The notes beneath the pieces are model-generated. The model searched no databases and had not been told where the DNA came from. It saw only the letters and a program-made list of their open reading frames with translations. DNA of 64,000 nucleotides from Kineosporia mesophila (lineage in GTDB: Bacteria > Actinomycetota > Actinomycetes > Actinomycetales > Kineosporiaceae): the NCBI RefSeq assembly GCF_021129235.1, contig NZ_JAJOMA010000012.1, forward strand, positions 62,001 through 126,000, read 5' to 3'. Every line of letters begins with the position of its first letter. Position 1 is the first letter of the stretch. Position numbers and translations under genes: made by a program. Below, piece by piece: positions 2,627-39,658 of this stretch.

Positions 2627-3880
2627 GTGCTCGACCCAGAGGGCCTCGATGGCGAGATCGGCCGCCCCGGTGCGCGAGCGCTCGTGGCGGAGACCGAGAT
2701 CGTGGATCTGATCGATCCGCTGCGCCGTTACGTCATGGCGCACACCCGGCAGCCGGCAGACGCTGATGATGTGGTTCAGGAAGTGTTGCTGAGGATGCTG
2801 GACATCCGCGACCGCCTCGCGCCGGGATCGTCCCTCGCCTATGCGATCGTGACCGCCCGGAACCTGATGACGACGCAGGCCCGGTCCACAGCCACCTTCT
2901 GGCGCAATCGCCACCGCCTGATCGATCTGCGCGAACCGGCCGAGCCTGACAGCGTCGCGATCGGGAGGTCCGAACGAGATGCGCTCCGGGTTGCCTTGGG
3001 GGAACTTCCGCCCGGTCAGCGTGAGGCCCTTCTCTCCCATGTGCTGGAGGAAGAGCCGGTCACGTCGATCGCGGTCCGGGAGAACGTCAGTCCCGGATCG
3101 GTGGCGGCCCAGCTCGGCCGGACCCGGGCCCGGCTGCGCGTCGACTACACGATGACCGCACGCCGGGCCCGTCTGCCGACCGCGCGCTGCCGGCCCGTCC
3201 TGCTGGCCCTTTCAGGAGGCGATCTGCGACGGCAGACGGCACTGCGGGCCGGGAATCATCTACTGAACTGCGAAACCTGCGCTGAACTGGCACCACCCCT
3301 GGTGGAACGTCAGCGGGCCCTGATCGCGTTCCTGCCCTGGCTCGGGCTGGGACCGGCCCTGGGGCTCCTCCGGCGAGCCTTCCGGCATCCGTCGGTCCAG
3401 GTGGGTGTCGCCACCACCGCTGTGGCCGCAGCGGGAGTGGGCGCAGTCGTCTGGGTGTCCGGCCCGGAACCCGTCGCGCCATCGCGGCCGGCGGTTTCCT
3501 CGTCACCCACCCCCATCACCGGAGTCTTCCGGCTGCCCGGCGGCCAGCCATTGCTCCCGGTGCCCACCGACCTGTCGTCCTTGGTGGGGGACCAGGTCGA
3601 GGGTCGAGCGGTCGCCGTCTCTTCCGTCGCGGCGAACGAAGGCTTCTGGGTCGGGGACCACACCCGCGGGCGGATCTGGGTGCAGTTGAAGACCGATGGC
3701 CGGGAGTCCCGGGTAACCGTCGATCCTGGCGACGTCATCAGTTTCACCGGTGCACTCGCCCGCACCGGTACCGGCTTCGCCGAGAAGGTGGGGGTCAGCG
3801 CATCCGACGGGGCACCCCTGCTGGCCCGCGAGGGGGCCCATATCGTAGTGAAGACCGGCGATCTCAAGATCATTCAATAG
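2627..3880 (+). CDS. ECF sigma factor fused to zinc finger, membrane helix and extracytoplasmic domain
   Basis: A 417-residue protein beginning at GTG 2627, eight bases after a strong AGGAGG. Residues about 20-75 form sigma region 2 (ADADDVVQEVLLRMLDIRD). Residues about 120-175 form region 4 (LGELPPGQREALLSHVLEEE, then an SPGSVAAQLGRTRARLR recognition helix). A zinc-binding anti-sigma motif follows at about residues 211-218 (HLLNCETC, H-x3-C-x2-C). A single membrane helix lies at about 258-280 (VGVATTAVAAAGVGAVVWV), then a Pro/Ser linker and a beta-rich extracytoplasmic domain of about 110 residues. Sigma and anti-sigma parts are usually separate proteins. Here one polypeptide could hold the sigma domains at the membrane until processed. 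No separate anti-sigma gene is adjacent. Confidence 0.8.
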   Translation: MLDPEGLDGEIGRPGARALVAETEIVDLIDPLRRYVMAHTRQPADADDVVQEVLLRMLDIRDRLAPGSSLAYAIVTARNLMTTQARSTATFWRNRHRLIDLREPAEPDSVAIGRSERDALRVALGELPPGQREALLSHVLEEEPVTSIAVRENVSPGSVAAQLGRTRARLRVDYTMTARRARLPTARCRPVLLALSGGDLRRQTALRAGNHLLNCETCAELAPPLVERQRALIAFLPWLGLGPALGLLRRAFRHPSVQVGVATTAVAAAGVGAVVWVSGPEPVAPSRPAVSSSPTPITGVFRLPGGQPLLPVPTDLSSLVGDQVEGRAVAVSSVAANEGFWVGDHTRGRIWVQLKTDGRESRVTVDPGDVISFTGALARTGTGFAEKVGVSASDGAPLLAREGAHIVVKTGDLKIIQ

Positions 3881-4000
3881 TTTCCTGCCTCAGGCGCCGG
3901 ATCACCCGGTCGTCGGAGGCACGGTGAGAACCGGCTTCCACCCGTCTCGTCGGCCACGACGTGGAGCGCGAGACGGACGGTGCCGCGGATGGTCCGGGGC

Positions 4001-5092
4001 CTACGGCCGCCGGACGAGGGTGACGTGGGACAGGCCCAGCAGGCCGTCCAGGGGGACTCTGGCGAACGTCTGATCCGGGTCGACGGTGTAACCGTTGTCG
4101 CGGAGCCGGCCGAGGAGCAGGGCGGCCAGCGGCATCACCATGTGCCGGCCCAAGCAGCGTTCCTGAACGTGCCCGAAGGGCAGATAGCCGGGATGGTTGT
4201 CGGGGTCCAGGTGCTTCCAGCGCTGGGGTAGGAAGGTGTCTGGTTCCTCCCACAGCGCAGGGTCTCGCTGGCTGAGGAGGTTGAGGAACAGCAGGTCGTC
4301 GTCGTGATGGATCCGGTCGTCGAGGGCGGGGTACTGCGGCGAGGCGAAGCGGAGCAGGTTCCAGGACGGTGGCAGCAACCGCATGGCCTCGTAAAGGATG
4401 TAGTCGTCGGGTGTGTCGTCGTCGAACGGTGCTCCCATCCACATGGCGCTGGTGACCAAGGTGGAGATCAGCAGGCAGATCGGCGCTGCCAGCCGGCGGT
4501 ACAGCACCATCGCGTGCCGACGGTCGCGATAGGTGACCTTGCCGGTGCTCATGGCGGCCAGCTGGGACATGTCGCCCGGCCCGCTCCGGCCGGTGATCCG
4601 GTGGAAAGGCCCGGGCAATGGTCGCCGGGGGCAGGCAGCCACCACGGTGGCAGCCGATGTCCAGGTCATGTGGGGCAGCAACTGCAGGCTGCGACCGGCG
4701 AACATGCGCAGTAGATAAGGATCCTGACCAAAAACGAGATCACGCAGATAGCGGTGGCCCACCTGGGGCCAGCGTCCTGACAGGTCGGTGGTCCAGGCAT
4801 TTCGGGTCTGGGCCTGAGCGAGTGCGGAACGCACGTCCTGGCCCAGGGCGCGCATGCCCAGTGCGGACTCCTGCTTGCTGATCGACCGGCCGAAGATGGG
4901 CTTGAACGTGGGTCTCTCGGTCGGCCCGGCGGGACGGGCGGCCAGCAGGGTGTTCATCAGAGCCGGGCCGGCCACCCCGATCGTGTCACGCTCCAGGCGG
5001 AACAGATCCTGCCCCCGATGCTCACCCATCAGCCGTTCCAGACGCGAGGCCATGATCGTCGTCCGCTGATGCCGACCTTGGTGGATGAGCAC
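4001..5092 (-). CDS. Atypical cytochrome P450, probable RiPP cross-linking enzyme
   Basis: About 363 residues from the chosen GTG at 5092, which has GGAAGAGG five bases upstream; ATG 5053 or an upstream start at 5170 are alternatives. P450 hallmarks are the K-helix ExxR (E235-A-M-R), a PERF-like segment (DTFLPQRW) and the heme ligand region PFGHVQERCLGRHM with Cys at about 313. The heme loop departs from FGxGxHxCxG (Val and Arg replace Gly and His). The I-helix region (LAAPICLLISTLVTSAMW) lacks the usual AGxxT acid-alcohol motif. The gene directly follows a 26-residue peptide gene ending AWYAWI. By analogy with tryptorubin biosynthesis the enzyme probably cross-links aromatic side chains of that peptide. 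No ferredoxin or reductase gene is adjacent, so redox partners would come from elsewhere. Confidence 0.8.
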   Translation of the reverse strand: MLIHQGRHQRTTIMASRLERLMGEHRGQDLFRLERDTIGVAGPALMNTLLAARPAGPTERPTFKPIFGRSISKQESALGMRALGQDVRSALAQAQTRNAWTTDLSGRWPQVGHRYLRDLVFGQDPYLLRMFAGRSLQLLPHMTWTSAATVVAACPRRPLPGPFHRITGRSGPGDMSQLAAMSTGKVTYRDRRHAMVLYRRLAAPICLLISTLVTSAMWMGAPFDDDTPDDYILYEAMRLLPPSWNLLRFASPQYPALDDRIHHDDDLLFLNLLSQRDPALWEEPDTFLPQRWKHLDPDNHPGYLPFGHVQERCLGRHMVMPLAALLLGRLRDNGYTVDPDQTFARVPLDGLLGLSHVTLVRRP

Positions 5093-5153
5093 ATCAACCT
5101 CTTCCCGCAACGTTTTCCGATGATCACCGGCGGGCGCCGGGTGCCGTCGAGGG

Positions 5154-5187
5154 CCGGTTCCGGCGGGCACCAGCCCGCCGGAACCGG
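5154..5187 (-). promoter_or_regulatory. Hairpin between precursor peptide and P450 genes
   Basis: A perfect 15-bp inverted repeat (5154-5168 with 5173-5187) with a four-base loop begins ten bases beyond the peptide stop codon and precedes the chosen P450 start by about 60 bases. Such a hairpin could act as a partial terminator or 3' stabiliser, giving more precursor mRNA than enzyme mRNA, as seen in other RiPP operons. It also argues against starting the P450 at 5170, inside the stem-loop. Confidence 0.65.
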
Positions 5188-5197
5188 GGAAGCTACC

Positions 5198-5278
5198 TCA
5201 GATCCACGCGTACCAGGCCTTGCTCTTCAAGCTCTTACGGTGAGTGATCTTCTGCGTCATCAGCCGGATCATGGCCAT
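5198..5278 (-). CDS. Atropopeptide-like RiPP precursor peptide, 26 residues
   Basis: The frame reads MAMIRLMTQKITHRK followed by SLKSKAWYAWI and a TGA stop. Start ATG 5278 has GAGAGGG about nine bases upstream; a second ATG lies two codons later. The N-terminal part is basic (Lys, Arg, His) and would be the leader. The C-terminal hexapeptide AWYAWI closely resembles the AWYIWY core of tryptorubin A, a P450-cross-linked atropopeptide (recalled from the literature). The gene is immediately upstream of, and co-directional with, an atypical P450. I infer that the Trp and Tyr residues are cross-linked and the leader removed, giving a small bridged peptide. The closest alternative is a biarylitide-type peptide, but those have an aromatic-x-His/Trp tripeptide core. 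Confidence 0.8.
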   Translation of the reverse strand: MAMIRLMTQKITHRKSLKSKAWYAWI

Positions 5279-5494
5279 GGGACGAAACCCTCTCTTGTGG
5301 ACGCCGATAGCAATGACAACGTTGATCCAGAAAACCGCTTTCCGCAACAAAAACTACCTATGAGATTTTTCGGACATCCCTCAGAAGGCTGTGACCAGGT
5401 GATTTTCGCGATTCTCGCCTGCCCCGGCCTTGACCCCACCGCGGCCCCCGAACGGAGGCCGATCCGCCCCCTGGCCCTGTGCCCGGGGGCGAAT

Positions 5495-6343
5495 TCAGAG
5501 GCGGACGGCTGTTCGCACCAGGTCGGCGACCGCGAGTGAACGGCTGCTGGGCGGCCAGGCGATCACCGTGGTGACTCTCGGCGCGTCCACGAGGGGCACA
5601 GCCACCGTGTCGTCGCGCAGCTGGGACCGGCAGGAGTCCGGCGACACCATCAGCGTGCGGCCCAGGGAGATGAGTTGCAGGAGCTGGGAATGGCTCTGGA
5701 CCTCGGGGCCGGGCCCGGGCGGGTAGGAGCCGTCGGAGGTGGGCCAGCGGGGCCGGGGCAGGTCCGGTACGTCGTCCAGGTCGCTCAGGCGCAGGCTCGG
5801 GTGGGTGCTGAGGACGTGCCCGGCCGGGAGAACCGCGACCTGCCCTTCGGTGAGCAGCTCTTCGGTGTCGAAACCGGTGGTGTCGTCGAACGGCCGGTGC
5901 AGGAGCGCCACGTCCGCCCGGCCGCCGGCCAGCAGGCGTGCCTGCTGGCCGGGCCCGCAGAGCATGACGTCGACCGGGATCGATCCGGGCTCGGCCGCGT
6001 AGGCGTGCAGCAGCTTCGCCAGCAGCTCGCTGGAGGCACCGGCCTTGGTGACCAGGACGATGCTGGGCCGCCCGGCGGCGGCCAGCGCCGCCCGCCGGGT
6101 GCGGTGCTCGGCGGCCTCCATCGCCTCCAGAGCCGCACGGCCCTCGTGCAGCAGCACGGCGCCGGCCGCGGTCAGGCTCACCGAGTGGCTGTCGCGCTGG
6201 AGCAGCTCGACGCCCATCCGGCGTTCGAGTTGGCTGATCGCCCGGGACAGGGGCGGCTGGGCCATACCCAGGCGCTGCGCGGCCCGGCCGAAATGCAACT
6301 CCTCGGCCACGGCGACGAAGTACCGCAGTTCCCGTGTCTCCAC
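5495..6343 (-). CDS. LysR-family transcriptional regulator
   Basis: A 282-residue protein starting at GTG 6343 (VETRELRYFVAVAEELHFGRAA). The N-terminal winged helix-turn-helix (residues about 1-60, AAQRLGMAQPPLSRAISQLE) is typical of LysR. The rest is a periplasmic-binding-protein-like effector domain (PVDVMLCGPGQQARLLAGGRADVALL). It is divergent from the dehydrogenase operon starting at 6448, with about 100 bases between, so that operon is the most likely target. It also lies upstream of and co-directional with the peptide/P450 pair, 216 bases away, so a role there cannot be excluded. Confidence 0.88.
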   Translation of the reverse strand: METRELRYFVAVAEELHFGRAAQRLGMAQPPLSRAISQLERRMGVELLQRDSHSVSLTAAGAVLLHEGRAALEAMEAAEHRTRRAALAAAGRPSIVLVTKAGASSELLAKLLHAYAAEPGSIPVDVMLCGPGQQARLLAGGRADVALLHRPFDDTTGFDTEELLTEGQVAVLPAGHVLSTHPSLRLSDLDDVPDLPRPRWPTSDGSYPPGPGPEVQSHSQLLQLISLGRTLMVSPDSCRSQLRDDTVAVPLVDAPRVTTVIAWPPSSRSLAVADLVRTAVRL

Positions 6344-39604: not shown

Positions 39605-39658
39605 CTGTTCGTGATCATGCAAAACCTCCCCGGGGAGGTTTTGCATGATCACGAACAG
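39605..39658. repeat. Perfect 54-bp palindrome between convergent genes
   Basis: Left arm 39605-39631 and right arm 39632-39658 are exact reverse complements over 27 bases with no loop; the arm starts CTGTTCGTGATCATGCAAAA and ends ACCTCCCC. The element lies between the monooxygenase stop (39579) and the Lrp stop (39668), so it can terminate both. The elements at 16563-16612 and 21750-21787 are degenerate relatives. Confidence 0.85.

Follow-up and report, generated by a model that had tools for sequence, protein, structure and literature searches.

The analysed stretch of DNA, the 64,000 nucleotides from Kineosporia mesophila referred to here as the window, holds on its minus strand (5278-5198) a reading frame that translates to MAMIRLMTQKITHRKSLKSKAWYAWI, followed by a TGA stop. 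It was assigned as the precursor gene (26 aa) of an atropopeptide of the tryptorubin family on the basis of its translation and its match to the model NF038372. A KSLK motif occupies residues 15-18, and the putative core AWYAWI, whose boundary is set by analogy, residues 21-26. Nine nucleotides 5' of the ATG lies GAGAGGG (5288-5294, minus strand), which is likely the ribosome-binding site. Translation and the Pfam p450 match reproduced the arrangement described in the initial annotation, namely a 26-codon gene with a ribosome-site-like sequence and a C-terminal AWYAWI, followed by a P450 gene on the same strand. The precursor gene has a G+C content of 54% and the 142 nt preceding it 49% (5198-5420), as opposed to 69% for the window.

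In hmmscan, the peptide matched NCBIfam NF038372 (tryptorubin family RiPP precursor) with 33.9 bits over positions 1-26 of 26, the curated cut-off being 33 bits, and the profile check suggested for the peptide was thus positive. The six-frame genome search gave 31.4 bits for the same gene (E 3.0e-6 genome-wide), so that a score above the cut-off by one method and below it by the other appears borderline. None of 14 control genomes contained a match in the six-frame search. The earlier statement that the gene would be missed holds as far as this borderline score is concerned, but not in so far as NCBI has a model for the precursor family. The DNA pattern of the core plus stop occurs once in the 7.78-Mb genome and its reversed control not at all. 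In pairwise comparisons among the three precursors known from the genus, pN was 0.20-0.25 and pS 0.36-0.43 (26 codons only, no significance test), which agrees with the selection expected on a translated peptide and suggests mild constraint over these few codons. The positions S16-L17-K18, K20, W22, Y23, W25 and I26 are among those invariant across the three.

The P450 frame lies 3' of the precursor on the same strand and ends at 4001. In the open reading frame list it starts at GTG 5170 (389 aa), and Pfam PF00067 (p450) matches this version with E 4.1e-10. This start is probably too early: GTG 5092 is preferred because four relatives align only from residue 33-36 on (389-aa numbering) and because AAGAGG, the likely ribosome-binding site of the P450 (5098-5103, minus strand), is located 5 nt upstream of it. 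The resulting protein of 363 aa (4001-5092, minus strand) agrees in its start with the sister sequences and is, according to Pfam, its identity to relatives and its position in the tree, a predicted peptide cross-linking enzyme. It keeps the haem loop PFGHVQERCLGRHM with Cys 313 and, starting at residue 235, the ExxR motif as EAMR; among solved chains, the closest in sequence is likewise a P450 (9ulw, E 2.5e-10).

The region separating the stop of the precursor from the start of the P450 contains a perfect 15-bp inverted repeat with a 4-nt loop (5154-5187, minus strand), and folding of the intergenic stretch gave a z of -3.61 relative to shuffles. In both sister genomes of the genus, a stem of 13 bp occupies the corresponding position; it differs in its letters yet remains complementary, so the pairing has been kept. 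We infer that the hairpin tunes the ratio of peptide to enzyme in favour of the peptide, either as a leaky terminator or by stabilising the mRNA. A ribosome site added before the varsorubin P450 raised the product about 100-fold according to the published account (PMC11450843), an effect that points to the P450 as a potentially limiting component. Stems with a score of at least 9 were found at 19 of 38 loci. A control of 56 gene ends from the window, L020 and L021 gave 12, with two palindromes each entering twice, once from either side (Fisher p 0.007, without correction for relatedness). The hairpin was ruled out as a family-wide signal, since at this stem score it is common but not universal (half of the loci). 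No Rfam family reached its gathering score in window positions 3800-5700, and no match to a sigma-70 promoter or a U-tailed terminator was found in 3800-5600. At a gene end elsewhere in the window (39605-39658) there is a 25-bp perfect palindrome with arms CTGTTCGTGATCATGCAAAACCTCC and a 4-nt loop. The arm has 11 exact matches on 8 contigs of the genome, two of which are the arms of this site, and a 21-nt segment of it is matched 15 times in the genus member G005 and not at all in G001-G004, so that it looks like a dispersed repeat.

Co-conservation of the peptide with its P450

With the P450 as bait (E <= 1e-50), 47 places in 46 of 392 genomes of the genus g55 were found; the precursor model (E <= 0.001), run on as many g55 genomes, returned 45 places in 44 genomes, 42 of them over the cut-off. 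Genus g55 is presumably Streptomyces, because its locus L026 is 89-96% identical at the DNA level to L004, a named Streptomyces. An upstream precursor is present at all 47 P450 places: at 45 of them, pairing by coordinates places a same-strand match to the precursor model 74-235 nt upstream, and the remaining two (G805, G761) have upstream PSLK-type precursors, which were found by a motif script. All six loci found via the P450 itself also have an upstream precursor, the four named ones being Streptomyces noursei (AWYGWI), Streptomyces sp. SID10853 (AWYIWY) and two Xanthomonas.

In a class sample of 394 genomes, the P450 and precursor searches hit the same three genomes, two belonging to g55 and one being that of the window; in an order sample of 99 genomes (E <= 1e-30) a match was obtained in the window's own genome only, G002 and G003 lying outside this sample. 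Among six genomes of the window's genus, three have a full-length P450 match (G000, G002, G003), and all three have the peptide, with the cores AWYAWI in the window and VWYAWI and AWYGWI in the sisters. The precursor model recovered two of these three precursors and missed that of G002 in the six-frame search. Together with the two sister genomes, the 47 places bear out the prediction that homologous P450 genes carry such a peptide upstream. Within stretches of 18-19 kb, no frame apart from that of the P450 and its antisense frame has a match in the two sister genomes (tblastn E 1e-10), and the pair thus appears as a conserved, seemingly free-standing unit. A LysR regulator, a short-chain dehydrogenase, a sigma factor and other genes near the pair were considered as tailoring genes and rejected, as none has a match in the sister genomes at this threshold.

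A phylogenetic tree was constructed with 38 P450 sequences, consisting of the window's, those of the six loci found via the P450 and those of the 31 best-scoring precursor-model loci, and was rooted at the midpoint. In this tree, the three P450s of the genus group in a single clade (100/100), which a branch of 0.71 separates from the remaining 35 sequences. The window P450 is 50.8-67.1% identical to the P450s beside the 37 related precursors (L005 over 214 residues only). The C-terminal hexamers of these precursors, which are not tested cleavage sites, are AWYIWY (15), AWYLWY (5), AWYGWI, AWYFWY and AWYHWY (4 each), and SWGLYM, AWSNYM, VWYAWI, SWYIWY and AWYIWF (once each); AWYGWI is found in two separate P450 clades. 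The precursor of G002 (L007, 2603-2683, minus strand), MAIINSVKRRIARRTSLKNKVWYAWI, contains TSLK instead of KSLK and reaches 26.0 bits with NF038372, below the cut-off. Two further loci deviate in other ways. The precursor of L043 (G812) has KNLK for KSLK, and a second precursor-P450 pair is located elsewhere in that genome. In L005 (Xanthomonas axonopodis), the P450 beside the core AWSNYM is broken: the stretch translates with four stops, and the best tblastn segment covers query residues 148-361 only.

Predicted product and competing explanations

The best explanation of the locus, which we hold with high confidence, is a minimal two-gene atropopeptide cluster of the xWxxWx or 'bitryptide' subfamily, whose P450 would cross-link the core AWYAWI. 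The assignment to the atropopeptides had already been proposed in the initial annotation, and the NF038372 match, the P450 identities, the tree and the co-conservation all uphold it. In published members, the P450 is recruited by the leader, in which KSLK serves as an anchor according to the authors' model; a single P450 forms the bridges, and the core is released by a host protease (PMC11450843). Efficient cyclisation also requires the leader portion that precedes KSLK (PMC12352619). By analogy, the ribosome would make the 26-residue precursor, whose basic leader would dock with its KSLK anchor on the partner P450, and the enzyme would oxidatively couple aromatic side chains of the core. In tryptorubin and varsorubin B1 the corresponding bridges are Trp2-Trp5 (C-C), Trp2-Tyr3 (C-N) and Trp5 to the backbone (C-N), which here would remove 4 H in total. 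The hexapeptide would then be released by a host protease encoded outside the cluster, and a peptidase may trim the Ala to give WYAWI. The most likely product is accordingly predicted as a tryptorubin-like bridged AWYAWI or WYAWI, for which the computed [M+H]+ with three bridges is 805.3668 or 734.3297, respectively.

The number of bridges is the point at which an alternative deserves some weight. It had been proposed that the terminal Ile would force a different or smaller set of bridges, but the literature speaks against this: of the core residues, only the sixth is not part of the bicyclic ring system, and the core SWYQWL yields varsorubin B1 with three bridges (M minus 4 H) (PMC11450843). 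The same three bridges should therefore be feasible on AWYAWI. A one-bridge product, a monocycle like scabrirubin or varsorubin B2a, from what would still be an atropopeptide cluster is nevertheless conceivable, if unlikely; its computed ions would be 807.3824 for AWYAWI and 736.3453 for WYAWI. Varsorubin B2a (M minus 2 H) is made by the same P450 as the three-bridge product, and scabrirubin is another one-bridge product of a family P450 (PMC11450843), so the bridge set is not readable from the sequence; the window P450 also belongs to a clade apart from all others sampled. On the other side, most of the characterised members described have three bridges (PMC11450843), and the bridge residues W2, Y3 and W5 are all present in AWYAWI. 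A further-reaching proposal, which we regard as quite improbable, is that of a separate atropopeptide enzyme lineage, found here only in the window's genus, with WY[A/G]WI cores, relaxed TSLK leaders and bridges unlike those of tryptorubin, while AWYGWI would have arisen independently in another P450 lineage.

Decay of the cluster, with a P450 that no longer works, was weighed because of substitutions in the enzyme, and is considered very unlikely. Residue 314, directly after the haem Cys, is Leu in the window P450 and Trp in all 37 other aligned P450s, and at near-invariant columns the window P450 departs nine times from the 37 other rows. Held against the others in the same manner, the sisters depart five and six times, and the other full-length rows depart 0 to 6 times from a set lacking the three genus members; the broken L005 piece is not comparable in this respect. 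When the other two genus members are set aside, however, the departures number 17 of 133 for the window P450 and 16 and 17 for the sisters, and its terminal branch of 0.35, although flagged among the long rows, stands against 0.28 and 0.25 in the sisters. The open frame is also full-length, and the haem Cys, ExxR, KSLK and the core W2 are intact. We attribute the departures to divergence of the lineage and give a small chance to a change in function, an altered activity being possible in view of Leu314 and the nine departures. That the peptide is a chance small frame 5' of an ordinary catabolic P450 is extremely improbable: its shortness and the NF038372 scores just above and just below the cut-off would fit such a reading, but it is contradicted by the co-occurrence of P450 and upstream peptide at every one of the g55 places and by the near-identical cores at the same place in the sister genomes.

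Comparison with known atropopeptide systems

Atropopeptides are defined by a class P450 beside the precursor, a KSLK-type leader motif, located at residues 17-20 of the precursor alignment, and a Trp at core position 2; more than 650 such clusters have already been mined (PMC11450843). The window pair shows these three features and is therefore filed as an atropopeptide cluster, with P450-made aryl cross-links predicted for its product; Trp at core positions 2 and 5 together with the KSLK leader also places it among the bitryptides. Biarylitides, which have a five-residue precursor from an 18-bp gene (PMC13417212), were considered and rejected, the window precursor comprising 26 residues.

The closest relatives are the sisters L007 (G002, VWYAWI) and L008 (G003, AWYGWI) of the same genus, with P450s 66.5 and 67.1% identical to that of the window and the same layout including the stem, although L007 differs in its TSLK leader and low model score. 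The mining-tool motifs given in PMC11450843 are KSLK, RSLK, ESLK, KSRK, KPLK and PSLK; since TSLK is absent from them and the L007 precursor stays below the NF038372 cut-off, the sister suggests that the published list and the NCBI model would each overlook some real members. Outside the genus, the AWYGWI loci L002 (Streptomyces noursei), L045 and L048 (g55) are one core residue apart, with Gly for Ala. Their P450s are only 50.8-52.4% identical to the window P450 and sit in another clade, so cores of the type WY[A/G]WI are associated with two distinct lineages of P450. AWYAWI, AWYGWI, VWYAWI, WYAWI and WYGWI were not found in the main text of the literature searched, the supplementary core lists lying outside this search. 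The new points are modest, consisting of a core unprinted in these main texts, the TSLK leader in a sister and the strong intergenic hairpin.

The tryptorubin A cluster (core AWYIWY) has the same two genes in the same order, the precursor followed by the P450, and shares KSLK, W2, Y3 and W5, whereas the window core has Ala for Ile at position 4 and Ile for Tyr at position 6. The window P450 is 51.7-57.2% identical to those beside 15 AWYIWY cores, a comparison that does not include the tryptorubin P450 itself (WP_007820080.1). The best chemical analogue is the varsorubin cluster of Streptomyces varsoviensis (PMC11450843), whose core SWYQWL shares the pattern xWYxWx and an aliphatic last residue but differs at residues 1, 4 and 6; this comparison is by core. 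The pair thus looks like a new atropopeptide member with an unusual core rather than a new kind of system, and it leaves the understanding of how atropopeptides are made unchanged. The family is of interest for its compact peptide macrocyclases, and the pair contributes a core and a divergent clade of P450s to it; with one short gene plus one enzyme, the pair is easily tested.
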